Virus record (IMG/VR): IMGVR_UViG_3300051212_000869
Location: 1-20,234 of that record
Source: a virus
Reading direction: 5' to 3' (one strand)
Length of the DNA stretch: 20,234 nt
Under the pieces are notes generated by a model, which was not told where the DNA came from, made no database searches, and saw only the letters and a list, made by a program, of their open reading frames with translations. Shown here in pieces: positions 3,855 to 20,234 of this stretch (positions are counted from its first letter, which is position 1; every line of letters begins with the position of its first letter). The translations under genes were made by a program, and so were the position numbers.

Positions 3855-3879
3855 TCAAAACTCAATCTTCCGCCATACT
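3851..3879 (+). promoter_or_regulatory. Weak candidate sigma70 promoter
   Basis: TTGATC (3851-3856), a 17-nt spacer, then CATACT (3874-3879) lie in the short gap between thyX and the next gene. Each box matches consensus at 4 of 6 positions. The predicted start (about 3886) would fall on the ribosome site AAGGAGG, leaving almost no leader, so this is tentative. Confidence 0.3.
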
Positions 3880-3896
3880 GTCGACAAGGAGGCCAT

Positions 3897-4292
3897 ATGG
3901 CTTTGATCACACACCAGCATGCAAAAGACCTGTTCATTCGTGTTCTTGACCAGTTCGACAAGGAGCGAGAGGCGCTTGATCTCGTAGACCGCGTCCGTCG
4001 AGAGAGCACCAATATCCTTGGTGCTGCCGTTAAGCAGCTCAAGGGCATCTACTTCGCAACAGACGAGGGTGTCGTCTTCATTGCGCGCGTCAAGGGCAAT
4101 TCGGTTAACATCCGACGTGCCTCAAATCGCACGCTCGATAGGCTGCGTCGAGATCCTGGGATGCTGGTGGATGTCCGCACCGCTGCCAAGGGCCGCAATC
4201 TTGACCCGATCCCCATGCGCGGGGAAGTCGATACCTCGCAGTGGTTCCCGACCATCAAGCACGAGGCGGGCGACGAGGGTGAGGAAGAATAA
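3897..4292 (+). CDS. Hypothetical protein (131 aa), upstream partner of GroES-like gene
   Basis: A strong ribosome site, AAGGAGG at 3886-3892, lies 4 nt before ATG 3897, after a 42-nt gap behind thyX, so this may open a new transcription unit. The N-terminal half is helical and charged (DLFIRVLDQFDKEREALDLVDRVRRES). A beta-rich middle follows (IYFATDEGVVFIARVKGNSVNI), and the tail is acidic (EAGDEGEEE). I do not recognise the family. Its stop overlaps the next start (TAATG), so it is co-translated with the GroES-like protein. Confidence 0.7.
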   Translation: MALITHQHAKDLFIRVLDQFDKEREALDLVDRVRRESTNILGAAVKQLKGIYFATDEGVVFIARVKGNSVNIRRASNRTLDRLRRDPGMLVDVRTAAKGRNLDPIPMRGEVDTSQWFPTIKHEAGDEGEEE

Positions 4293-5017
4293 TGGACGCG
4301 GATGCCTACTTGGAGGCGATGCTTGAGGAAGATAAGGTGCGCCCTCTCCCCGGCCATCTTATCGGCCTCAAGCATACCAAGAACAAGCACATCGAACTTG
4401 AGGGCTATGGACAGATAGCCGTCAGCCAGCAGACTGCTAGTGGGCTCGTCGTCGTATCCAATGACACGAGAGAAGCCGAGAACTACAAAGCACTGCTGGT
4501 TACTGTACTTGTCCTGGGGGATGAGCCGGACAAGTGGGCTACTCGCTGGTTTGACAAGAAGAAAGACTGGAAGACGACCTTTGCGGAGCAGCGCATCGAT
4601 GTCGGAACAACCGTGGCCATTCGTGCGGTCTCTGGTGTCGATCAGGTCAAAGGCAGCAAGTTCATTCAGCTTCGCTATGACGAGGTAAGCGCAATTGGAC
4701 AGGCAGAAGACGAAATCGACGTTCCCGATATGCTACCCGCACCAGGCTGGGTATTGGTCCAGCTTGATACCACGGAGCACAAAAATAAAGCCGGGCTTCA
4801 TGTTTATGAAGGTCTCCAACAAGTCCTAGATCAGGGACAGATGTCCTACGGGACCATTATCGGCCTCCCGCGAGGATACCCTTTCCAGGACCTTCATGTC
4901 GGAGACACCATTTGTTTCCCCACGCATACAGGCGCGGGCGCAACAGAGTTTGTCGAGTTTGCAGAGGGGCTCCGCTGCTTGCCTATCGATGACATCCTCG
5001 GGGTAGTAGATGCTTGA
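4292..5017 (+). CDS. Tandem GroES-like co-chaperonin (putative, 241 aa)
   Basis: The second half (about 146-241) reads like a GroES chain: LPAPGWVLVQLDTTEHKNKA at the start, a mobile-loop-like AGLHVYEG, then GTIIGLPRG, LHVGDTICF and the ending LRCLPIDDILGVVD, which matches the ...EDILGVVE end of GroES. The first half (about 16-136) has the same order: RPLPGHLIGLK, SGLVVVSND as the loop, LLVTVLVLGDE, VGTTVAIRAVSG, and LRYDEVSAIG. Ordinary GroES and phage cochaperonins are about 95-115 aa, so two domains fused in one chain explain the length. It would cap a chaperonin ring during folding of phage proteins. No GroEL gene is in the window. The assignment is by pattern, with no alignment run. Confidence 0.6.
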   Translation: MDADAYLEAMLEEDKVRPLPGHLIGLKHTKNKHIELEGYGQIAVSQQTASGLVVVSNDTREAENYKALLVTVLVLGDEPDKWATRWFDKKKDWKTTFAEQRIDVGTTVAIRAVSGVDQVKGSKFIQLRYDEVSAIGQAEDEIDVPDMLPAPGWVLVQLDTTEHKNKAGLHVYEGLQQVLDQGQMSYGTIIGLPRGYPFQDLHVGDTICFPTHTGAGATEFVEFAEGLRCLPIDDILGVVDA

Positions 5018-10781: not shown

Positions 10782-11299
10782 CTATCAAGGTCACAGGTTC
10801 TGCTACATACGGACGCAAGAAGCTCGACCGGATGAAGATCCGGAAGGAGATCGCACAACAAATCAAAGAATATATTATGGAACGGGTTAACGTGCGAGGC
10901 CAGGGTGCGAATGGCAAGCTCAAAGGATATTCGACTAAGCCTTTGCGGATACACAAACCAGATGCCGGACAAAAGCCCATGCAGAAACCAGCACGAGGGT
11001 GGGCAAGTTTTCACAAAGGCGGGTACAAGCAATATCGTGACGAGGCAGGCCTTATCTCCAACAAGTTTGTCTTCTCTAACAAGGGAGCAGCCTGGCGCGA
11101 CTGGATGAAAGCGACACAGGAGCCAGACGGACCTCTGCGTTTCGGCTTTTCTGATTCTCTCAACGTCATGGCAGCAGACGAGGCGATTGAGAACGGTCGC
11201 GAGGACATGCTCGACTTAAACTCTATAGAACTCAATAGGTTTGGACAAGAATATATCGAGTTAGCACTCCGGCAAATCTGGACAGAAGAAAGGGCTTGA
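10778..11299 (+). CDS. Putative head-tail joining or virion morphogenesis protein (173 aa)
   Basis: The gene overlaps the minor head gene by ATGA and ends at the promoter for the scaffold operon. The first half is very basic (GRKKLDRMKIRKEIAQQIKE, GYSTKPLRIHKPD), followed by GWASFHKGGYKQYRDEAGL and FRFGFSD-like beta segments, then an acidic helical end. The pattern of a basic G-x-x-Y-K-x-Y-R-x-x-x-G-L segment resembles small phage morphogenesis or completion proteins, but I cannot name a family. Role is inferred from position. Confidence 0.5.
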   Translation: MTIKVTGSATYGRKKLDRMKIRKEIAQQIKEYIMERVNVRGQGANGKLKGYSTKPLRIHKPDAGQKPMQKPARGWASFHKGGYKQYRDEAGLISNKFVFSNKGAAWRDWMKATQEPDGPLRFGFSDSLNVMAADEAIENGREDMLDLNSIELNRFGQEYIELALRQIWTEERA

Positions 11300-11324
11300 C
11301 TCTTTTTATATTTCTTGGTAAAGT
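11296..11324 (+). promoter_or_regulatory. Sigma70 promoter for scaffold/capsid genes
   Basis: TTGACT (11296-11301, 5 of 6), 17-nt AT-rich spacer, TAAAGT (11319-11324, 4 of 6). Predicted +1 is 11331, the first base of a hairpin. It sits at the end of the upstream gene with the -35 overlapping its stop codon. Confidence 0.6.
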
Positions 11325-11330
11325 AGACGC

Positions 11331-11371
11331 GCTACCATAAGTAGCACCTCCATCCCGGTCTCTCTGCCGGG
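11331..11371 (+). promoter_or_regulatory. 5' leader with two hairpins before the scaffold gene
   Basis: GCTAC/GTAGC (11331-11335, 11341-11345, loop CATAA) begins exactly at the predicted transcription start. A second stem, CCCGG/CCGGG (11354-11358, 11367-11371), follows. There is no T-tract, so these are more likely mRNA-stability or translation elements than terminators. The ribosome site AGGAG (11386-11390) is left free. Confidence 0.5.
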
Positions 11372-11395
11372 TCATCAAACAGAGTAGGAGTGAGA

Positions 11396-12076
11396 ATGAG
11401 TGAGCCCGCACAGGACGAGCAGTCCGAGACGGCGACGCAGAATACTGCCCCGTCTGAAACCGTTGAAAAGCCCAATACCGACGATGTAAAGAAAGCCAAA
11501 GCAGAAGCTGCGCGCATGGCTAAGGCTCTTGCAGACCTTCAGAAGAAGGCGCAGGAACTTGAAGATTTCAAGAAGAATGCCGAGCGCGAAAAGATGTCTG
11601 CTGAAGAGCGCATCAAGGCCGAGAAAGAGGACCTTGCTCTGCAGCTCAAGCAGCACCAGGAGAACCTCGCTGCCGCTCGTACCGAGTTGGAGCAGGAACG
11701 CCTCATCAATAAGCTCATTGCCAACGGCCTCGACGACCCCGACTTCGGTTCGTTGATCATCAAGAACTTCAACGCAGAAGATGAAGCCTTTGAAGACTTC
11801 GTTGGACGCATGAAGACGAGCAAGAAGTTTGGTCGATTCTTTAAGGGAGACCAGAAAGTCGAAGCACCAGAAGCGCCTAGACCGACTGCGCCTACCGCCC
11901 CTAACTCTGGGTCTCAGCGTTCGAATAGAGCGGCTGATGAGGTCTCGGAGGCAGATAAACGCCTCGCGGAAGACCGATATCCCAAGGACAAGGCTAAGCA
12001 AGCAACCTTCCTGAAGAATCTGTTGGAAGCTCGCAAAATTCGCAAGCAAAACGAGGTAGACTATGGTCGAGGGTAA
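11396..12076 (+). CDS. Head scaffolding protein
   Basis: An acidic, Ser/Thr/Pro-rich N-terminus is followed by a long charged coiled coil from about residue 26 to 105 (KKAKAEAARMAKALADLQKK through QHQENLAAARTELEQERLIN). Then come a compact segment (LIANGLDDPDFGSLIIKNFN), a Pro/Ala-rich linker and a basic helical C-terminus (DKAKQATFLKNLLEARKIRK) of the kind scaffolds use to hold coat protein. This architecture and the place two genes before the capsid region are typical of scaffolds, which are lost from the mature head. I chose ATG 11396 over GTG 11390 because AGGAG is 5 nt upstream of the ATG and overlaps the GTG. No protease domain is fused. Confidence 0.82.
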   Translation: MSEPAQDEQSETATQNTAPSETVEKPNTDDVKKAKAEAARMAKALADLQKKAQELEDFKKNAEREKMSAEERIKAEKEDLALQLKQHQENLAAARTELEQERLINKLIANGLDDPDFGSLIIKNFNAEDEAFEDFVGRMKTSKKFGRFFKGDQKVEAPEAPRPTAPTAPNSGSQRSNRAADEVSEADKRLAEDRYPKDKAKQATFLKNLLEARKIRKQNEVDYGRG

Positions 12077-12539
12077 GAGCGGAGAAAAGAAGAAGAGCCT
12101 GCAGGAGCGAATCGCTGAGAAGGCCAAGAGCCGCGCGTTCAATCCTACCTTCCTTGACGGCAAGGCACAGCTCTTCAACATCAAGAACTACGGAGTGGAC
12201 TACACCGCTGGCGGACAGCTCAGTGCGCGTTTTGTCGCGAACGACGACGCCCGAATCAGCATGATGCGCGCGCAGGGATATATGTTCCCAGATGAGTGGG
12301 ATACCGAACTTCCGCGACGCAACTTCGGTGGCCTAACGCTTATGCTCCGCGAGCAGGAAGCGGCTGAACATCGTCGAAATGTACTCGAAGCCCTCGCAAG
12401 GCAGCAAGATGCCAAGCGAGCAGACATTCCTGATAATCTCAATAAGCCCTGGCAGCAGGGCGGTGTTCAGGGCGCGATCGAGCGCGTCACTGGGCAGGCC
12501 AAGGCGAACTATACTCGGGAGCCTATCACTCCCGACTAA
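12063..12539 (+). CDS. Hypothetical head-region protein (158 aa)
   Basis: It begins 14 nt inside the scaffold gene in another frame, with GAGG (12053-12056) 6 nt upstream of ATG 12063, so both are translated together. The N-terminus is strongly basic (GKSGEKKKSLQERIAEKAKS). The middle is NIKNYGVDYTAGGQLSARFV and the C-terminal half helical (LMLREQEAAEHRRNVLEALA). No family is recognised. Its conserved-looking position between scaffold and decoration genes suggests a head assembly or minor structural role. The tail is polar and probably disordered. Confidence 0.68.
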   Translation: MVEGKSGEKKKSLQERIAEKAKSRAFNPTFLDGKAQLFNIKNYGVDYTAGGQLSARFVANDDARISMMRAQGYMFPDEWDTELPRRNFGGLTLMLREQEAAEHRRNVLEALARQQDAKRADIPDNLNKPWQQGGVQGAIERVTGQAKANYTREPITPD

Positions 12540-12542
12540 CCC

Positions 12543-12556
12543 GGCCCTGCGGGGCC
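12543..12556 (+). promoter_or_regulatory. Intercistronic hairpin before decoration gene
   Basis: GGCCC (12543-12547), loop TGCG, GGGCC (12552-12556) form a perfect GC stem, followed 4 nt later by the ribosome site AGGAGG (12561-12566). Without a T-tract it is not a standard terminator. It may protect the mRNA 3' segment or mark a processing point. Confidence 0.5.
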
Positions 12557-12573
12557 TAAGAGGAGGTTGATCC

Positions 12574-13065
12574 ATGCCGGATCTCAAGCCCGTTAGCAAT
12601 CATACGCGCACCCAGCGTTACTACCTCGCGGCCTCGCAGACCATTGATGTTGGCGATCCCGTTCTTCTCAACTCGGCAGGCTACGTCGAGCTGGCCACGG
12701 CTTCGTCCGCGAGCCTTCTTGGTATCTGTGCAGAGAAGATCACGTCGTCTACGCTTGGTCAGGCTGTCGTTGTCTTCGATGATCCCGACCTTGAGTTCGA
12801 GATTCTCGCAGATGACGTCGCTGAGGCCATTCAGACCGCCGTCGGTGAGACTCACGACCTCATCGTCACTGGCGGTGTGTTCCTCGCCAATCTTGGGGCC
12901 ACGACCACCAACGTGCTCAAAGTGCTGGCAGTGAACACCAACTTCGACCCTCTTCTCGACGGCGAGACCATCTACGGTTCTTCTCTCGCGGGTAACTTTG
13001 TTCCCCCGTGGAATGATAAGAAGAAGATCCGCTGCAAGTTCGCTCTTCACCAGAAGGCTAACTAA
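12574..13065 (+). CDS. Capsid decoration-like protein (163 aa)
   Basis: The gene has an ideal ribosome site (AGGAGG, 7 nt before ATG 12574) and sits immediately before the major capsid gene, the usual place for head decoration or stabilisation proteins. The protein is beta-rich with a repeated pattern: YYLAASQTIDVGDPVLLN, then LLGICAEKI, GQAVVVFDDPDLEFEI and HDLIVTGGVFLANLG. The segment DVGDPVLLNSAGYVELAT is like that in phage capsid decoration and DUF2190-type proteins. High ribosome-site strength suggests abundant product. Codon use is strongly C/T-ending, as in the capsid gene. Function is by position and fold impression. Confidence 0.65.
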   Translation: MPDLKPVSNHTRTQRYYLAASQTIDVGDPVLLNSAGYVELATASSASLLGICAEKITSSTLGQAVVVFDDPDLEFEILADDVAEAIQTAVGETHDLIVTGGVFLANLGATTTNVLKVLAVNTNFDPLLDGETIYGSSLAGNFVPPWNDKKKIRCKFALHQKAN

Positions 13066-13074
13066 TTAAATCCT

Positions 13075-13090
13075 AGCGGGGCAACCTGCT
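13075..13090 (+). promoter_or_regulatory. GNRA-tetraloop hairpin before capsid gene
   Basis: AGCGGG and CCTGCT pair (one G-T wobble) around the loop GCAA, a GNRA tetraloop. It lies 2 nt before the ribosome site AAGGAGGA (13093-13100) of the capsid gene. It may stabilise this high-expression transcript. Confidence 0.5.
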
Positions 13091-13108
13091 TGAAGGAGGA
13101 AAAGGACC

Positions 13109-14035
13109 ATGGCAGTTGCTAGTTTGATGCAGCTCTTCCGCGAGACGGACGAGCGTTTCCTCTCGATCTTTATGACCGAGTGGGCTGTTGCTGAGAACGA
13201 AGTTGCCCCGCTCGTTCGTGAGCGCGACCTTCAGGGCCGCGACCATGACCGCTATGCGGAGCGTTATCTCGGTACGGCTACCGCCCCTATCGCGGGCGAA
13301 GGCCAGCCGTTTACCTACATCAGCCCGAACGAGGGTAAGTCGGTTGAAATCACCACCGACATCTACCAGTTCGGTATGAAGGTGACGGAAGAGATGCGCG
13401 ACTTCGGTCGTGGCGGTTGGAATGAGTATCCCTCGATGATGGTCGACGTGTATAACCACACGAAGGTCGTCATGGTGGCGAATCTCCTCAATCGTGCGTT
13501 CAATTCCAGCTACCCCACCCTTTACGATGCCAAGGAGCTTTGCGCTACCGACCATCCGCTGGCTGGTGGTGGCACGGCCTCTAACGAGCTCGCTACGGCG
13601 GCTGACCTCTCCGAGGCGACCGTTGAGGCGATGATCGAGCTTATGCAGCGTACCCCGAATGAGGACGGCGTTCTCATCAATCGGTACCGCCCGACGCTCC
13701 TCATCACCTCTCCGTCGACCTGGGGTACGAACGTGCGTCTTACCCAGTCGCAGTTCACCACCGACGTGTCGAGCAATCGCGGCGACAACACTGTCAACGC
13801 GATCACCTCGGTCTACGGGCTTCAGACCTTCACGCACCCCTACCTGCAGGACGCGGATGCCTCGTTCATCCTCGACTCTGCTCGTACTCCGCTTGAGGTC
13901 ATCTACGCCCGCCGTCCGACGCTCTACCCGGGCTACATTGAGCAGGGCACCCGTAACTGGGTGTGGACCAGCAAGATGCAGCTCGCGGTCAAGGCGACCG
14001 GCTGGCGTGGTATCGTGGGTACTGCTGGAGCCTAA
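13109..14035 (+). CDS. Major capsid protein (HK97-fold, Mu gpT-like)
   Basis: At 308 aa and following scaffold and decoration genes, this is the coat protein. The N-terminal arm is helical (SLMQLFRETDERFLSIFMTE). The middle has EGQPFTYISPNEGKSVEITT and a long helix (SMMVDVYNHTKVVMVANLLN). LCATDHPLAGGGTASNELAT is typical of the Mu gpT-like capsid family, followed by RPTLLITSPSTWG (A-domain-like), QTFTHPYLQDADASFIL and the C-terminal NWVWTSKMQLAVKATGWRG. Its ribosome site AAGGAGGA is among the best in the window, and codon use is highly biased. No cleavage delta-domain is obvious, which agrees with a separate scaffold. It forms the icosahedral shell. Confidence 0.88.
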   Translation: MAVASLMQLFRETDERFLSIFMTEWAVAENEVAPLVRERDLQGRDHDRYAERYLGTATAPIAGEGQPFTYISPNEGKSVEITTDIYQFGMKVTEEMRDFGRGGWNEYPSMMVDVYNHTKVVMVANLLNRAFNSSYPTLYDAKELCATDHPLAGGGTASNELATAADLSEATVEAMIELMQRTPNEDGVLINRYRPTLLITSPSTWGTNVRLTQSQFTTDVSSNRGDNTVNAITSVYGLQTFTHPYLQDADASFILDSARTPLEVIYARRPTLYPGYIEQGTRNWVWTSKMQLAVKATGWRGIVGTAGA

Positions 14036-14059
14036 TAACGGTCGGCACCTAGTGTGCTA

Positions 14060-14100
14060 ACCAGAATCTGGGCCCGGTTGTCGGGCTCAGATTCCCTGGT
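14060..14100 (+). promoter_or_regulatory. Long hairpin after the capsid gene
   Basis: ACCAG-AATCTG-G-GCCCG pairs with CGGGC-T-CAGATT-CC-CTGGT, giving about 17 base pairs with one wobble and a 2-nt bulge around the loop GTTGT. No T-tract follows; the ribosome site GGAGG of the next gene comes 3 nt later. It may limit read-through, block 3' exonucleases or lower expression of the connector gene relative to capsid. Confidence 0.6.
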
Positions 14101-14114
14101 CATGGAGGGGGGCC

Positions 14115-15089
14115 TTGTCTACATACAACGTTTTGCTGTATCGGCAAGGGGGGACTTTGTATCTCGACGAGCCCCTTCCAGACCAGCCTTCTGCCTGCAC
14201 CGTCTCAATTACCCAATTGGATGGTAACGGCCTGGCTGATCTCGGCGGCGGCTTCGCGAACATCTCCGATGTCGCTGCCACGATCGACAATCTTGTGCTG
14301 ACTCTGCCTGCTAAGGCTTCGCCTTGGCGCACTGTGGCACCTACTGCAACGGCAGGCACCATTGGCGACCTGACGGCAGAGGGCCGACGATTCCTCCTCA
14401 ATCGAGGCGGACGTAAGCGGTGGGCACGAGTCTCTGAGTTTGATACCGCTGGTGGAGAGGTCACAGAGGTTCGGTTTGACGAGGGCATTGATTATGCCAC
14501 CAAGACCGGCGACACACTCAAAGGCGTTCGCTGCTCCTATACCGTCAACTGGGCATCGGTCTCTAGCACGTTCGTTGGACGTGTCAAAGCCACCTGGAAG
14601 GTCACTGTAGAAGGCACTGTCCGAACCATCGTCAAGGTATACGATGTCGTTAAGCAAGTGCTGTTCTGCCCCGCTACTTGGACGGATGTAGGTCGTCTGC
14701 GCCCTGACGTGGATAATGAACTCTCCAAAGTCCAAGATAAAGAGATGCTCATTCAGCAGGCCTGGCAAGACATCGTCCGGGACCTCGACGCAATGGGCAT
14801 TCGACATAATCTCGTCATCCCAGACGGAAGTACTATCCTTCGGGATGCCGCCGTGCTACAATGCCTAATCAATCTGACCCAATATCAAGGGCTGGCCGCG
14901 CCACCCGGATATATCGGACAGACGGACGACTACATTGATGCACTGGAATCCAAGAAGCAATCCATCCTCGGCAAGTTCGCAATCCCTGTGGACTTCAATC
15001 AGGACGGCAACTTGGATACGACTGAGCAGTATGGGAACAAGCGGCAGGTATGGTTCCGCCGTCCCCCTCGGTCTAAAGGGCGAGACTAA
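14115..15089 (+). CDS. Putative head-tail connector protein (324 aa), TTG start
   Basis: The frame begins at TTG 14115, with GGAGG (14104-14108) 6 nt upstream; no ATG or GTG in frame nearby could replace it. An ATG at 14102 is out of frame. The N-terminal 160 residues are beta-rich (NVLLYRQGGTLYLDE, TIDNLVLTLPAKA). The C-terminal half is helical like connector/adaptor proteins: LRPDVDNELSKVQDKEMLIQ, then DLDAMGIRHNLVIPDGSTIL and AAVLQCLINLTQYQG. Near the end DFNQDGNLDTTE (293-304) has the ligand spacing of an EF-hand calcium loop. It should join portal and tail; assignment is by position and helical pattern. Confidence 0.6.
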   Translation: MSTYNVLLYRQGGTLYLDEPLPDQPSACTVSITQLDGNGLADLGGGFANISDVAATIDNLVLTLPAKASPWRTVAPTATAGTIGDLTAEGRRFLLNRGGRKRWARVSEFDTAGGEVTEVRFDEGIDYATKTGDTLKGVRCSYTVNWASVSSTFVGRVKATWKVTVEGTVRTIVKVYDVVKQVLFCPATWTDVGRLRPDVDNELSKVQDKEMLIQQAWQDIVRDLDAMGIRHNLVIPDGSTILRDAAVLQCLINLTQYQGLAAPPGYIGQTDDYIDALESKKQSILGKFAIPVDFNQDGNLDTTEQYGNKRQVWFRRPPRSKGRD

Positions 15090-15565
15090 TGGCTCTTGAT
15101 TGTGTCATCCGGCGCTTGTACGCCACCATCTGCCGCGACCCAGATACGGGCGAAGGCGGATTGACACCCACGGCCTCTGACTTCCATGCCGAGGGTTTCA
15201 CCCGGGTTGACAATATCCGCATCCCTAATGCGGTCAAAGGGTCAGTGGATCGCATGGTCGAGATTGATTATCTCGGCACGGCCAAATACCAAGCCTTCGC
15301 CAATGGTGCAGGCACTAAACGCCGCGCGACGCATAGATTGCTCTTGCGAATCGGATATTTCGCAGGAGACAACCATAATGAAACCCAGATGATCATCGCG
15401 GCGGATGATAGCCTTATTGGGCTCTACATCCAGAAACTTGACAATATCCATGGTGAATGCGAAGGTCTCTGCCTTGAGAAGGTCGAGGTGGATTCCAGCG
15501 AGGTTATCAAGCTCGATAGCCAACGCTACGAGCTGCAGATGAGTCTCAAAGTACAGGTCTATTGA
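15089..15565 (+). CDS. Putative tail terminator or tail completion protein (158 aa)
   Basis: The start overlaps the connector stop (TAATG). The gene lies just before the major tail protein, where siphophages encode the tail terminator that caps the tube. The protein is beta-rich with several basic segments (AGTKRRATHRLLLRIGYFAG) and alternating strands at the end (LEKVEVDSSEVIKLDSQRYELQMSLKVQVY). It has Cys5, Cys15 and two Cys in GECEGLCLEK. I see no diagnostic motif, so the role is inferred from order and size. Confidence 0.55.
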   Translation: MALDCVIRRLYATICRDPDTGEGGLTPTASDFHAEGFTRVDNIRIPNAVKGSVDRMVEIDYLGTAKYQAFANGAGTKRRATHRLLLRIGYFAGDNHNETQMIIAADDSLIGLYIQKLDNIHGECEGLCLEKVEVDSSEVIKLDSQRYELQMSLKVQVY

Positions 15566-15581
15566 CCACGGGAGGCCGCAA

Positions 15582-16988
15582 ATGGTTGACGGAAAGAGAT
15601 CAGATTACATTGGGCTGTATTTCATGCCCGAATCCAGTTACGGCGTGGACCCGGGCATTGTCGCGGCTTCCACCGTAAATGGCACCAGCGAGACCTATCG
15701 CTTCGTGCCCAACTCCACCTACAGGGCGTTTGTTCGCCTGGCCGAGAAGCCCTCGGGCCTTCCCAAGCAGCCCCTTGTCGATGTGCCGCAGATTTATGCG
15801 ACGCACGACTATGACACCTGCAAGGTCAAGGGCATCAAGGACACGGGCGAGTTCAGCATCTCCATGCACATCCATGGCCCCGTGACCGACTTCGGCACCA
15901 CTGGCGCCACGGGCCGCACTCAGCCTCCTCCGTGGCTCCAGCTTGCTGGTAGCGCCTGCGGCTTCCTGCTCGGCAATAAGACCGGACAGAGCGGCGGAAC
16001 GGCGGACACGATTGCTTCTTCGACGAGCGGCAAGGCTTTTGTTGTCACCACTGGCACCGTCGACGAAGGACATGTCCTCGCAATCCCGGCTCCGGGCTCT
16101 AGCACGGACTTTGAGATTGCCCGTCCGACCACTGTGGGCTCTAGCACGGCAGTCACCGACATCGCCTACAACGGCGTTGATTGGGGCTTCACGGCGACTC
16201 CGGTTGCGGCAGAGAACGTGTACTACGCTTGCCAGGGTGCTTTCGATAAGCGTTTCGAGGGCGTCTCCGAGTCTTTCACCATGCTCCTGCAGCGTGCTGA
16301 TAGCAACGCCAGCATCAAGTTCACGGGCGCTCGCTGCTCCGGTGTGGAGATTACGTCGAAGGTCGGCGAACTCCCCATGATCAAGCTCTCCTTCATCTAC
16401 CGCGACTATGTCTATGTCACCGACGCGATTGACGACGAGCCTGAGTATGTTACCACGTTCCCCTGCCCCGCTGTGACCCAGGGCGCGAAGCTCTGGATTA
16501 CCTGGGACGAGAATGCGGACGGAGTGGTTGACGCAGCGGATCGCAAAGAGAACATGGAGCTTTCCAGCTTCAATCTCAAGTGGACGCCGGGCTATGTTCG
16601 CCGCAAGGCCAGCACTGCCAGTGACGGTATCGCAGAGGTCATCTGCTCGCAGAAGAGCGAGTTTGAGGTCAGCTTCGAGACCCTCTACAATCAGGACTGG
16701 CAGGATTACCTCGGCCTTTGCTGCAACGAGAACTTTGCCTCGCTGTCGCTTTGCTACTGGGAGCCCAATGTGGACTTCGTTCGTACCAGCGCGACCAATA
16801 CCCGCCAGGGCGCTTGGTTCGCTTTCGTGGCCAATGCCCACCAGCTCGAGGACCCGGGTAGTGAGGGGGAGATGGACTCCATCATGTACCAGACTATCCG
16901 CCTCGGATGTGGTAACTACACTGGGGACAACGGCAGCTTTGGAACCAGCACGCACATCGATACCAAGTGGCTTATCGGGGTTGTGTAA
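15582..16988 (+). CDS. Major tail tube protein
   Basis: After a good ribosome site (GGGAGG, 15569-15574), this 468-aa protein begins DYIGLYFMPESSYGVDPG, a typical tail tube start. It also has FSISMHIHGPV and PPWLQLAGSACGFLLG, which are characteristic of siphovirus tube proteins. An inserted beta domain runs from about 145 to 215 (SGKAFVVTTGTVDEGHVLAI to TPVAAENVYYA), which makes it longer than the usual 200-300 aa. The core returns with FEGVSESFTMLLQRADSNAS and GARCSGVEITSKVGELPMIK. At 309-320, DENADGVVDAAD has EF-hand/dockerin-like spacing. GGGCTCTAGCACGG repeats in frame at 16094 and 16136 (encoding GSST twice). It builds the tube through which DNA leaves. Confidence 0.8.
   Translation: MVDGKRSDYIGLYFMPESSYGVDPGIVAASTVNGTSETYRFVPNSTYRAFVRLAEKPSGLPKQPLVDVPQIYATHDYDTCKVKGIKDTGEFSISMHIHGPVTDFGTTGATGRTQPPPWLQLAGSACGFLLGNKTGQSGGTADTIASSTSGKAFVVTTGTVDEGHVLAIPAPGSSTDFEIARPTTVGSSTAVTDIAYNGVDWGFTATPVAAENVYYACQGAFDKRFEGVSESFTMLLQRADSNASIKFTGARCSGVEITSKVGELPMIKLSFIYRDYVYVTDAIDDEPEYVTTFPCPAVTQGAKLWITWDENADGVVDAADRKENMELSSFNLKWTPGYVRRKASTASDGIAEVICSQKSEFEVSFETLYNQDWQDYLGLCCNENFASLSLCYWEPNVDFVRTSATNTRQGAWFAFVANAHQLEDPGSEGEMDSIMYQTIRLGCGNYTGDNGSFGTSTHIDTKWLIGVV
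16094..16149 (+). repeat. 14-bp direct repeat pair inside the tail tube gene
   Basis: GGGCTCTAGCACGG occurs at 16094-16107 and 16136-16149, 42 nt apart and in frame. Each copy encodes Gly-Ser-Ser-Thr within the inserted beta domain, which points to a small internal duplication or repeated turn. Confidence 0.6.
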
Positions 16989-16991
16989 TCC

Positions 16992-17020
16992 TTGACAATC
17001 CGCTGAGCATGCGATAGAAT
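16992..17020 (+). promoter_or_regulatory. Strong sigma70 promoter for chaperone/tape-measure genes
   Basis: TTGACA (perfect -35, 16992-16997), 17-nt spacer, TAGAAT (5 of 6, 17015-17020). Predicted +1 is 17027, which lies inside the left arm of the terminator stem that follows. Confidence 0.75.
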
Positions 17021-17055
17021 GGGGGTCGGTGGAAACACCGTCCCCCTTTGTTTTT
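17021..17055 (+). terminator. Rho-independent terminator behind the tail tube gene
   Basis: GGGGG-T-CGGTG (17021-17031), loop GAAA, CACCG-T-CCCCC (17036-17046), then TTTGTTTTT. Ten GC-rich pairs with one T-T mismatch, a GNRA loop and a T-tract make this a textbook intrinsic terminator for transcripts arriving from the tail tube gene. It abuts the ribosome site GGAGG (17056-17060). Confidence 0.8.
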
Positions 17056-17066
17056 GGAGGCCCCTG

Positions 17067-17609
17067 GTGGCACGCAAAGCTCGCTCTAACGCAACTACTA
17101 TCGCTCGCTTTATTGCCTTTGACGATGACGCAATCGGCGGTGATTCCAATACTCTCGGCGAGCGGTATGAGAAGTACCTCAATACCGCCGATTTGAGGCC
17201 TCTGGAACTCGACAAGGACAAGGCGCCTGCCTACTACTATGTACGGCCCTTCACGAGCCAGGAACGCGCGATTCTGCGCGATTACTTCGAGTCAGTGCGC
17301 GAGGTCTCGGATGAGAACTCCGAGGAGACCAAGCTGAGCGCCCTTGATACCCAAGACATCGTGGAGCGGTTTGGCGTTGTGCGCCGTAGCGTGCTGCAGA
17401 ACTGCTTGGTTGGCTGTATCGACCACCCCACGGTCGGCGGCGAGCTTCCAGACGATGGTGTCCTGCAGGTCAAGCATCTCAAGTGGGACATTGGCAGCCC
17501 GGAGCCCGTCGGACTCAAGGAAGCCATCCTTGCGGACGAGATGCTGGTCGGGGCCATGCTGACCTTCTTGTTCACTATCTCGCGCCTGAGCGAAGACGAA
17601 AAAAACTAA
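17067..17609 (+). CDS. Tail assembly chaperone, short form (gpG-like, 180 aa)
   Basis: The start is GTG 17067, placed 6 nt after GGAGG (17056-17060); codons upstream belong to the promoter and terminator. The protein is an acidic helical molecule with a basic N-terminus. Segments include YYYVRPFTSQERAILRDYFE, LSALDTQDIVERFGVVRRSV and DEMLVGAMLTFLFTISRLSE. It lies between tail tube and tape measure, the invariant position of the gpG/gpGT chaperones that load the tape measure for tube polymerisation. The 3' end carries the slippery heptamer just before its TAA, so most ribosomes should give this form and a minority the longer one. Confidence 0.78.
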   Translation: MARKARSNATTIARFIAFDDDAIGGDSNTLGERYEKYLNTADLRPLELDKDKAPAYYYVRPFTSQERAILRDYFESVREVSDENSEETKLSALDTQDIVERFGVVRRSVLQNCLVGCIDHPTVGGELPDDGVLQVKHLKWDIGSPEPVGLKEAILADEMLVGAMLTFLFTISRLSEDEKN

Positions 17610-17989
17610 TAAAGCTGGCGTGTTGGGAATCCGAATGGCCTATTCGGCAGCTTCGTTGCGAGGCGTGCGGTGGGCGCAAGGAATCGGATGCGCATATACG
17701 CAAAGTTCTAGGGTGCGATACACCGCTCCCTAACAACCGCCAGCATGTCATCAAACGAGGAAACGCGCTTCCTCCTCTGACGCTCAATACCTGCCCTAGA
17801 AAAGCAATCCAGCCTGCTAGTGCGTATTTCAGCGTCTACAACTGGGCCAAGAAGGGACTACTGGAATATCAGTATCCGCCAGAGGCTCTACCAGCTAAGT
17901 ACGCCGAGGCCATTGAGTGCATTGACGTGGAGCTGGATGAAAAGCACAATGCGTTGACAGAAGCGAGTAAATCGCGAAGCAAGGAGTAG
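17067..17989 (+). CDS. Tail assembly chaperone, -1 frameshift fusion (gpGT-like, about 307 aa)
   Basis: Ribosomes slipping back one base at A AAA AAC (17600-17606) would continue as LIKLACWESEWPIRQLRC to TAG 17987-17989, adding 127 residues. In the -1 frame there is no ATG, GTG or TTG between the slip site and about 17930, so the extension cannot be an independent gene. The extension begins with a Cys cluster (LACW, LRCEACGG, VLGCD) resembling a zinc ribbon, then ends with helices such as YNWAKKGLLEYQYPPEALPA. This G/GT arrangement is known in many siphophages (lambda G and GT). Only 6 nt separate it from the tape measure start. Confidence 0.78.
17600..17653 (+). promoter_or_regulatory. Programmed -1 frameshift site with downstream structure
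   Basis: The heptamer A AAA AAC is in phase with the zero-frame codons AAA AAC and is followed at once by the stop TAA. After a 5-nt spacer, AAGCTG (17612-17617) pairs with CAGCTT (17648-17653), and CCGAAT/ATTCGG (17631-17636, 17642-17647) forms an inner stem. A 13-nt bulge lies on the 5' side only. Spacer length and stem position suit a stimulatory structure. Confidence 0.75.
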
Positions 17990-17995
17990 CCCATT

Positions 17996-20234
17996 ATGGC
18001 CCGAGCCACTGCACACCTTGAGGTTACCGTAAACGACAAACAACTTGTCGATCACGCTGCAACCTTGAAGCAAACTCGGGATACTTGGGATAGCCTTGTC
18101 AAGGCAGCCAAAGATTTTAGCGGGGCCTATACTCAGGACATGGGCAAGGGATTTGCCGACCTGGGTAAAGGCCTTGCTGCGTTTAATAGAGTTGATGCTG
18201 CTAATATCTCTGCTGTTTTCCAAGGCCTACAAGAAGCGGCTAAAGCTGATCTATCCAAATTCGTTAAATCTACTGAAGGGTTTTTGAAGCATTTAGAGCC
18301 GCTAACAGCTGGTACATATAATTGGGCCAATCAGCTTGGCCGCGTCTTCGGCTATATCAAATCGCTGGACGAGCGGCTCGATTCCTTGGGCATTCAGCAG
18401 CAGAAGACCGTACAGCTCTCCAATCAGTTTGAGGGAGAACTGAAGCAGATTACGGACGCGATGAAGCTGCAGGCCGATACCATGAAGGGCCTTGTGCAGA
18501 GCTACGCTGGGCTCAATACTTCTCTGCAAAACGCTTTGCAGGCTCAAAATAAGCTAGGACAACAGCAAGAAGAAACTACAGAAAAAACAAGCAAGCAGAA
18601 AAAGGAACTAGGCTCCGCTAAAGACGTGTTCACGACAATGGAGCGTGCCTATATTCGACACTCCACCGCGTTTTTTATCGCTGGACAGCAGATCGAATCA
18701 GCAATAGAGGGACTGAGGACTGCCGCACAAGAAATTGATCTCGATAAAGTGTTGGCTAGATCAGTAGAAGGCTGGGGACAGATTCGAGAGGCGACACAAA
18801 AATCTACTAAGGGCATGGTTAGTGACCTGCAGATTCTCAAATCTGGCGCGCTGATGTCTTCTTTCAAGATCCCCGTCGATAATCTCGCGCAGAATATGGA
18901 GATGTTGCAGAAGCTGGCAGTAAGAACAGGCCAGCCTATCCAATATATGATGGATTCTTTTGCGCGTGGTGTTTCGCGCCTTAGCCCTGCAATTTTGGAT
19001 AACTTGGGGCTCCAGATTAAGTTATCAGAGGCCTACGATAAGTTCGCCAAAAAACAAGGCATTTCCGTCGATAAGATGGATGCGGAACTAAAAAAGCGCG
19101 CTGTATTGAATGAGGTACTTTCTCAAGGTAATGAACTTGTTAAAGATGTAGATCCCTACTCAAGTTTGCAGGGGCGCTTGGACCGCGCATCTGCTGCTTA
19201 CGAGAATTATACCAGTCGAGTTAAAGGCGCTTTGCTTGAGGCCGCTTTCGCTATTACCATGACGGAAGAGTTTGCTCTAGGTAAGATGGCCGATATTATG
19301 GCCATTCGCCAAAAAGAGTTCGAAAAATATGGAAGAGTAGTTAGCGACACAGCAAAGAACGCCCTATTAGCTATAAATATAGATGCCCAATCAGCGGTCG
19401 AGGAATTTGCTGCACTTCAAAGTGTAGCTACTCTTGACTTTTTGTTCCGTACTGAAGCAGGAGCAGCAGCAGCTAGAAAAGAGCAACTGCTAGATTTAGG
19501 GCTAATTGTCGATGTCAATAAATTAACTAGAGAGCAAGAAAAGGAAAGATTACAGGCCCTTGAGAAGGAGAGAGGGCTTCGGCAGCGATATAACGAAATC
19601 CTCAACCGCCGGGAGGAACTAGAAAAAATATTATATGATAATTTTACTCGCCGTAATGAGAAAGCATTAGAGGGAATAAAAACAAGTATTACATCTTTTG
19701 AAGCTCTTCGCCTAGCTATTGAAAAGGCGGGCGCTTCGGGCAAGGGTGATAAAACACCGCTCGGTATTACTCTGCAAGAAATCAATAAAGACAAAGCAGA
19801 GCAGTTGGAGCGTATTCGCCTAAATTTTGTAGAAATAGCGAATCAGGTGGCCAAGGTCGGAGGCAACGTCGGAGCAGTTACAACCATCGCGGATACCCTA
19901 TTGAATATCTCGCTCGCGCGTTTTCATGAAGAGAACAAGAAGGCCGCTCAGGAAAGACTGGTTGCACATCAGAAGAAAAATGCGGAAGGATTCGCAGAAC
20001 TAGCTATAGCAGAGAAACTCTATTCTCAGAGCAATATGATTGTGGACGAGGATAGGACGAGGCTTAGTCTGGCGTTTGAACTTGAGAAAAAACAAAAAGA
20101 ACTAGCTGATGCCCAGAAATTGTATCTCGATATGGACGAGAAAGCCAGTTTGAGGGGAGCTGAAGGCGCGGAGTATAGCGCAACGCAGGTACTCAATCAG
20201 GCTAAAAAACTAAAGGGCTTGGCTGATGAAGTAG
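17996..20234 (+). CDS. Tail length tape measure protein, 5' part (3' end beyond window)
   Basis: The frame is open from ATG 17996 to the window edge (746 codons). It starts ARATAHLEVTVNDKQLVDHA and is almost entirely helical. GKGFADLGKGLAAFNRVDAA and LDERLDSLGIQQQKTVQLSN precede a conserved-looking block (SFARGVSRLSPAILDNLGLQ, KRAVLNEVLSQG). That block is the type seen in tape measure proteins. The later part is Lys/Glu-rich coiled coil (LEKERGLRQRYNEILNRREE, AFELEKKQKELADAQKLYLD). Tape measures set tail length and are threaded in the tube; length cannot be judged here. The second half is more AT-rich than the capsid genes. No peptidase or lysozyme domain is visible in the part seen. It follows the chaperone genes by 6 nt. 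Confidence 0.85.
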   Translation, partial: MARATAHLEVTVNDKQLVDHAATLKQTRDTWDSLVKAAKDFSGAYTQDMGKGFADLGKGLAAFNRVDAANISAVFQGLQEAAKADLSKFVKSTEGFLKHLEPLTAGTYNWANQLGRVFGYIKSLDERLDSLGIQQQKTVQLSNQFEGELKQITDAMKLQADTMKGLVQSYAGLNTSLQNALQAQNKLGQQQEETTEKTSKQKKELGSAKDVFTTMERAYIRHSTAFFIAGQQIESAIEGLRTAAQEIDLDKVLARSVEGWGQIREATQKSTKGMVSDLQILKSGALMSSFKIPVDNLAQNMEMLQKLAVRTGQPIQYMMDSFARGVSRLSPAILDNLGLQIKLSEAYDKFAKKQGISVDKMDAELKKRAVLNEVLSQGNELVKDVDPYSSLQGRLDRASAAYENYTSRVKGALLEAAFAITMTEEFALGKMADIMAIRQKEFEKYGRVVSDTAKNALLAINIDAQSAVEEFAALQSVATLDFLFRTEAGAAAARKEQLLDLGLIVDVNKLTREQEKERLQALEKERGLRQRYNEILNRREELEKILYDNFTRRNEKALEGIKTSITSFEALRLAIEKAGASGKGDKTPLGITLQEINKDKAEQLERIRLNFVEIANQVAKVGGNVGAVTTIADTLLNISLARFHEENKKAAQERLVAHQKKNAEGFAELAIAEKLYSQSNMIVDEDRTRLSLAFELEKKQKELADAQKLYLDMDEKASLRGAEGAEYSATQVLNQAKKLKGLADEV

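Follow-up and report, generated by a model that had tools for sequence, protein, structure and literature searches.

A predicted promoter whose start site lies inside a terminator stem at the tail tube-chaperone junction of a tailed phage

The stretch of DNA analyzed here, which we call the window, is a 20,234-base IMG/VR virus fragment; all coordinates refer to it and all features lie on the + strand. By its gene content (terminase, tape measure) it comes from a double-stranded DNA tailed phage. Between the putative tail tube gene and the first tail assembly chaperone gene lies a gap of 78 bases that holds a promoter, a stem, a T tract and a ribosome-binding site. A first-pass annotation had proposed that a near-consensus promoter is followed here without gap by a strong terminator, and that the two together insulate and restart transcription. 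We consider this idea probably correct: the junction would act as a terminator/promoter relay that ends readthrough from the tail tube gene and restarts the chaperone/tape-measure unit. The junction is composed as follows.

15582 to 16988, + strand: gene of the major tail tube protein, 468 amino acids, named from gene order and a weak phrog_290 match; relatives are 94% and 66% identical
16992 to 16997, + strand: -35 box TTGACA, 6/6 consensus, identical in the relatives L002 and L011
16998 to 17014, + strand: 17-nucleotide spacer, length retained and sequence 2/17 identical in L011
17015 to 17020, + strand: -10 box TAGAAT, 5/6 consensus, TAAAAT in L011
17021 to 17025, + strand: GGGGG, promoter discriminator and outer 5' arm of the terminator stem, pairing with CCCCC 17042-17046
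17021 to 17046, + strand: full terminator stem-loop GGGGG-U-CGGUG-GAAA-CACCG-U-CCCCC, 10 bp with one 1x1 mismatch (T17026/T17041), -20.7 kcal/mol
17027 to 17028, + strand: predicted transcription start, C17027 by the rule '-10 end + 7' or, equally likely, G17028 by purine preference
17027 to 17040, + strand: inner stem-loop CGGUG-GAAA-CACCG, arms 17027-17031 and 17036-17040, GAAA loop 17032-17035
17047 to 17055, + strand: T tract TTTGTTTTT, read from the sequence, identical in L002; predicted 3' ends of the tail-tube RNA
17056 to 17060, + strand: ribosome-binding site GGAGG, read from the sequence
17067 to 17609, + strand: first tail assembly chaperone gene, GTG start, in a lambda G-like position by gene order

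The promoter was scored against the sigma70 consensus TTGACA/TATAAT. At 16992-17020 it has the hexamers and the spacing (17 nucleotides, within 16-18) of a sigma70-type promoter, matches the consensus at 11 of 12 positions and ranks first among the 11 promoter-like sites of the window. By chance, such a window would contain on average 0.23 matches to TTGACA-N16-18-TANNNT (about one window in five), and an 11/12 site with TTGAC arises in 8.5% of shuffles. The adjoining sequence at 17021-17055 has the makeup of an intrinsic terminator, with a G+C-rich stem that runs straight into a T tract. Its stem has a z score of -4.6 and none of 200 shuffles was as good; owing to the internal mismatch, a terminator scan detected no more than the inner stem. 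There is no gap between the -10 box and the stem, nor between the stem and the T tract, and the composite core from the -35 box through the T tract takes up 64 bases. Every element that had been proposed is in place.

The start site had been placed at the first base of the inner arm, C17027; this position stands beside G17028 as one of two. From both of them the outer G5 arm lies entirely upstream of +1. RNA begun at 17027 is predicted to keep a 5-bp hairpin of -7.5 kcal/mol with its foot 6 nucleotides from the T tract, and RNA begun at 17028 a 4-bp hairpin of -6.2 kcal/mol; over both starts the gap to the T tract is 6-7 nucleotides. With such a small remnant held away from the T tract, the claim that readthrough RNA would stop here and that RNA from the promoter itself would escape is supported.

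A comparison of homologous junctions, which had been suggested at the outset, was possible in two relatives that reach this site, L002 (tail tube 94% identical) and L011 (tail tube 66%, capsid 76%). L002 has a single change in the 64-bp core, located in the promoter spacer, compared to 34% divergence at the fourfold-degenerate sites of both flanking genes. The probability of such conservation is about 7e-11 when judged by fourfold sites and 0.005 against overall divergence. L011 carries TTGACA-17-TAAAAT and then GCGGGGAGGTGCAGGAATCAAAACCTGCCCTCCC, beginning 3 nucleotides past the tail tube stop codon as in the window. Its boxes match those of the window at 11 of 12 positions, and its hairpin is built from other bases in the same place (within 3 nucleotides of the -10 box) with equal strength (-20.4 kcal/mol), including a full-length outer helix. 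Since boxes and spacing were retained while the spacer was randomized and the stem was rebuilt, selection would have acted on promoter and hairpin, and the comparative evidence says that both halves of the composite are likely under selection. The contigs of L011 (at 7562, exactly inside the stem) and of a further relative, L003, stop at or before the composite, perhaps by an assembly break at the hairpin. L004 and L238 were considered as relatives and set aside, as neither has an alignable tail tube junction. Neither the tail tube protein nor the DNA of the junction had a match among phage records, and two scans of genome contigs gave no relatives.

The same arrangement was sought in IMG/VR, in scans limited to a 17-nucleotide spacer and stems starting with G. 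TTGACA-N17-TANAATGNGGG occurs at at least 115 distinct sites. Among the 115 listed, 13 (11 of them outside the window lineage) carry an abutting stem and T tract; over 30 shuffle sets the mean is 0.3 and the maximum 1. When a stem and T tract abutting the -10 box were made part of the pattern, the scan returned 91 stretches with 50 distinct junctions, all with stems of at least 5 bp, and a control scan with the stem shifted 12 bases downstream returned 13 stretches, 9 of them distinct and 5 with stems. In the abutting set, the median hairpin energy is -12.1 kcal/mol in readthrough RNA versus 0.0 from +1. Clustering of the flanking proteins separates the composites into about 30 different gene pairs, and in many of these the upstream gene is psbA, pstS or talC. 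Marine cyanobacterial phages predominate. Cultured cases are P-SSM4 (12/12 promoter) and Syn9, after psbD (11/12, 18-nucleotide spacer). A histogram of promoter/terminator offsets at the loci examined, with the selected sites removed, contained too few pairs for a peak to stand out. In the cyanophage composites after psbA, pstS and talC (L151, L153, L184, L188, L168, L172, L138 and others), the TGA stop codon often lies inside TTGACA. The next ATG often follows directly after the T tract at these junctions, which leaves a leader of about 20 nucleotides with no evident space to fit a ribosome-binding site.

From the positions, folding, conservation and recurrence of the element we infer promoter activity, termination efficiency and a purpose. 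A polymerase arriving from the scaffold, capsid and tail tube genes would make the full 10-bp G+C hairpin and the U tract and would stop at about 17050-17055, so that the tail-tube mRNA, an abundant one, would end in a stable hairpin. The sigma70-type promoter would initiate transcription within the stem, near 17027/17028, with a discriminator that is at the same time the outer 5' arm of the terminator; such double duty is plausible. Because the outer arm is never transcribed, the helix next to the U tract could not form and the restarted RNA would escape termination. This RNA would begin with a small stem-loop and be translated from GTG 17067 to supply the low-copy chaperone/tape-measure block. 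The inner stem-loop at 17027..17040 would thus belong to the terminator when RNA reads through and would form the 5'-terminal hairpin when RNA is restarted. The likely purpose would be to decouple a high-copy head/tail-tube mRNA from a low-copy chaperone/tape-measure mRNA. That one element insulates and restarts transcription fits the geometry, the conservation and the recurrence; with an interrupted T tract, the insulation may be partial.

The hairpin at the new 5' end is matched at a second promoter of the same operon, located before a scaffold-like gene.

11296 to 11324, + strand: second conserved promoter, TTGACT-17-TAAAGT, conserved in L009 (6184), L010 (6199) and L011 (932)
11331 to 11345, + strand: 5'-terminal hairpin GCUAC-CAUAA-GUAGC, whose first base is the predicted +1 of the scaffold promoter

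In the window, L009, L010 and L011 (4/4) a stem-loop begins exactly at the predicted +1 of this promoter. Three of the four share the GCUAC stem (the loop in L010 is CAGAA), and L011 has an unrelated, longer hairpin with the same start base. The inner stem of the tail tube junction also begins exactly at the predicted +1 in both lineages. Hence, a stem-loop is predicted at the very 5' end of both operon mRNAs. Stem-loops of this kind protect bacterial mRNAs, for example ompA. At the tail tube junction the discriminator appears to extend the +1 stem upstream and a T tract is added, so that a 5' cap hairpin becomes a terminator that would be complete only in readthrough RNA. A small GNRA hairpin had been predicted for the new 5' end. 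The hairpin itself is predicted for both operon promoters; the GNRA loop is not conserved, the loop in L011 being AATCAAAA. Before the scaffold-like gene there is a second leader hairpin, CCCGG-TCTCTCTG-CCGGG (11353-11372), with paired changes in L010 (CCCAG/CTGGG), which suggests a conserved structured 5' leader.

Other readings of the junction have to be considered. The terminator, or attenuator, could be the only real part: it would trim transcription after the tail tube gene, chaperone and tape measure would be expressed by partial readthrough, and the boxes would be there by chance. A strong stem with an interrupted T tract suits such partial readthrough, and boxes of this quality turn up in about a fifth of such windows. 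However, boxes that are dispensable for termination would not be expected to be invariant, they persist in L011 with their 17-nucleotide spacing despite the randomized spacer, and the offset between boxes and stem recurs unchanged in many phages. We therefore regard this explanation as unlikely. Conversely, only the promoter might be real, with a stabilizing hairpin at the 5' end of its RNA, no terminator, and the outer arm serving as a favored G-rich discriminator. GGGA directly downstream of the -10 box is the optimal contact for sigma region 1.2 (PMC10232725), and the scaffold promoter of this operon is likewise followed by a predicted +1 hairpin, with no terminator attached. A promoter would have no use for the complementary C5 arm and the adjoining T tract, yet they are invariant in L002, and L011 retains the full-length outer helix with other bases. 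The recurrent cases keep a perfect stem and T tract though no stable hairpin remains from +1. A promoter without a terminator is thus very unlikely.

An inverted repeat that overlaps a promoter start region is also what an operator looks like, and the dyad might bind a repressor; alternatively, the junction might encode a very short non-coding RNA. Both were rejected as highly improbable. A start inside the stem makes a complete hairpin RNA impossible from this promoter, Rfam covariance models gave no match up to E = 1 across 10900-18100, and the arm sequence, which should be fixed in an operator, is replaced in L011.

Several points weigh against the relay itself. G+C-rich discriminators lower open-complex stability (PMC10232725), so that the G run could slow promoter opening; as GGGA is at the same time the best contact for sigma region 1.2, the strength of the promoter is uncertain. 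In the T tract, G17050 breaks the run of T. No more than two relatives reach the junction, and the contig of L011 ends inside the stem (7562), so that any T tract would lie beyond the contig end. RNA from +1 in L011 would keep an 8-bp stem (-11 kcal/mol), and escape is less clear-cut there. P-SSM4 has the composite at one of roughly 20 convincing terminators, most of which have no embedded promoter. Many of the recurrent cases come from related cyanophages and are not independent, hence there are fewer origins than the counts suggest. Finally, promoter and terminator are predicted from the sequence, as are both RNA ends.

Overlaps of this kind have precedents. The closest known case is the gene VIII/III junction of M13. 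In the Ff phages (M13/f1/fd) a terminator directly follows the most abundant structural gene and the next gene encodes a low-copy virion protein. M13 transcripts end at this central terminator, and gene III is served by a weak promoter of its own. A promoter-like -10 TACAAT (9/12 overall) ends 4 bases before the G+C stem of the terminator, placing the predicted +1 in the 5' arm. However, M13 is an unrelated single-stranded DNA phage, its -35 is weak, its stem short, and it has no separate inner hairpin. The M13 relative I2-2 has the terminator and no promoter of at least 8/12 there. The window shares with M13 a predicted start inside a terminator stem after a major structural gene (16992-17055), by sequence only, and does not share descent with the Ff phages. 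The T4-like cyanophages (Kyanoviridae: P-SSM4, Syn9) have composites after psbA, psbD, pstS, talC and other genes, in which TTGACA-17-TATAAT is followed directly by a G-start stem and T tract, often with the start codon next, and with the same escape geometry as in the window. Their stems begin 0-2 nucleotides after the -10 box and the T tract abuts; the window has this layout with an offset of 0. In contrast to the window, these phages are A+T-rich, most stems have 5-8 bp and usually no hairpin is left from +1. In its mode of action the element in the window appears to resemble both the M13 junction and the composites of cyanophages; by descent it is unrelated to M13. In lambda, the gene order V-G-T-H is as in the window (major tail protein, -1-frameshift chaperone pair, tape measure). 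Its V-G gap has only 15 nucleotides and is too short for such a terminator or promoter.

In the published cyanophage annotation, promoters and terminators are given on the flanks of such genes, and the parts of these papers available to us do not mention an overlap (PMC3037559, PMC10452541). We found no description of the overlap as a class in the literature searched, which did not cover most subscription papers. As far as these searches show, the class has gone unremarked because annotation programs treat promoters and terminators apart. The overlap as such is known but little noticed; what is new relative to the known cases is the near-consensus promoter, the double-length stem and the 5' hairpin left behind.

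A further step is possible but doubtful: the relay may be convergent across several phage lineages, with the 5' arm of the terminator doubling as discriminator and the overlapping promoter recapturing the terminated polymerase where it stands, by post-termination recycling. The old RNA would be released and a new 5' end made, so that transcription would be passed on and not lost. According to the available parts of the E. coli single-molecule work, polymerase that stays on the DNA after intrinsic termination is able to start again at a promoter close by; in vitro it did so at a downstream promoter after 37% of termination events, or 55% with added sigma70 (PMC6978380), and Harden et al. proposed a sense promoter near a terminator as a gene-coupling device (PMC6978322). 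Those parts deal with engineered templates and describe no natural promoter-inside-terminator element (PMC6978380, PMC6978322). On-the-spot restart is a possibility raised by the single-molecule work, and we found no dedicated natural site in the literature searched. If true, recapture would make the relay a natural example of terminator-coupled reinitiation, and the composites offer natural templates for asking whether a just-terminated polymerase restarts on the spot. Within one phage operon, about 64 bases would suffice to stop transcription, restart it and give the new transcript a hairpin cap, a compact separation of expression levels. The class also sits at the psbA, pstS and talC junctions of abundant cyanophages, and the composite could serve as a short insulator in gene circuits.

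The genes downstream of the junction are the following.

17483 to 17989, + strand: second chaperone frame (-1), an open reading frame to 17989
17600 to 17606, + strand: slippery site A AAA AAC for the -1 frameshift into the second chaperone frame, read from the sequence and retained in L009
17996 to 20233, + strand: tape measure gene (phrog_3779/phrog_1272), open at the window end

The name tail tube is a weak assignment, suggested by gene order (head genes before; the -1-frameshift chaperone pair and the tape measure after) together with the weak PHROG match. An AlphaFold model of the protein was uninformative (pLDDT 27), and comparison with solved structures gave no match. The terminase gene matches phrog_2 and its product is only about 25% identical to those of cultured phages; the capsid gene has a borderline match to Mu gpT. 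A coding frame that opens at ATG 17019 and crosses the hairpin was discarded, since L002 has an in-frame TAG just before GTG 17067. The A AAA AAC heptamer stands directly before the TAA TAA that closes the first chaperone frame, and the frameshift resembles that of lambda G/GT, with no family match detectable. A 241-amino-acid protein (4292-5017) resembles in its C-terminal part a phage GroES-like co-chaperonin (phrog_3188, E 4e-6), as if a GroES-like domain were carried on a longer unknown protein. Just 3' of the capsid gene there is a strong hairpin without T tract (14060-14100; -27 kcal/mol for 14050-14105). It shows paired changes in L010 and is perhaps an mRNA stabilizer or processing site. 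Where the window lineage has this post-capsid hairpin, L011 has an open reading frame with Cys pairs and an HNH-like motif (3863-4567), between the capsid gene and the next structural gene.
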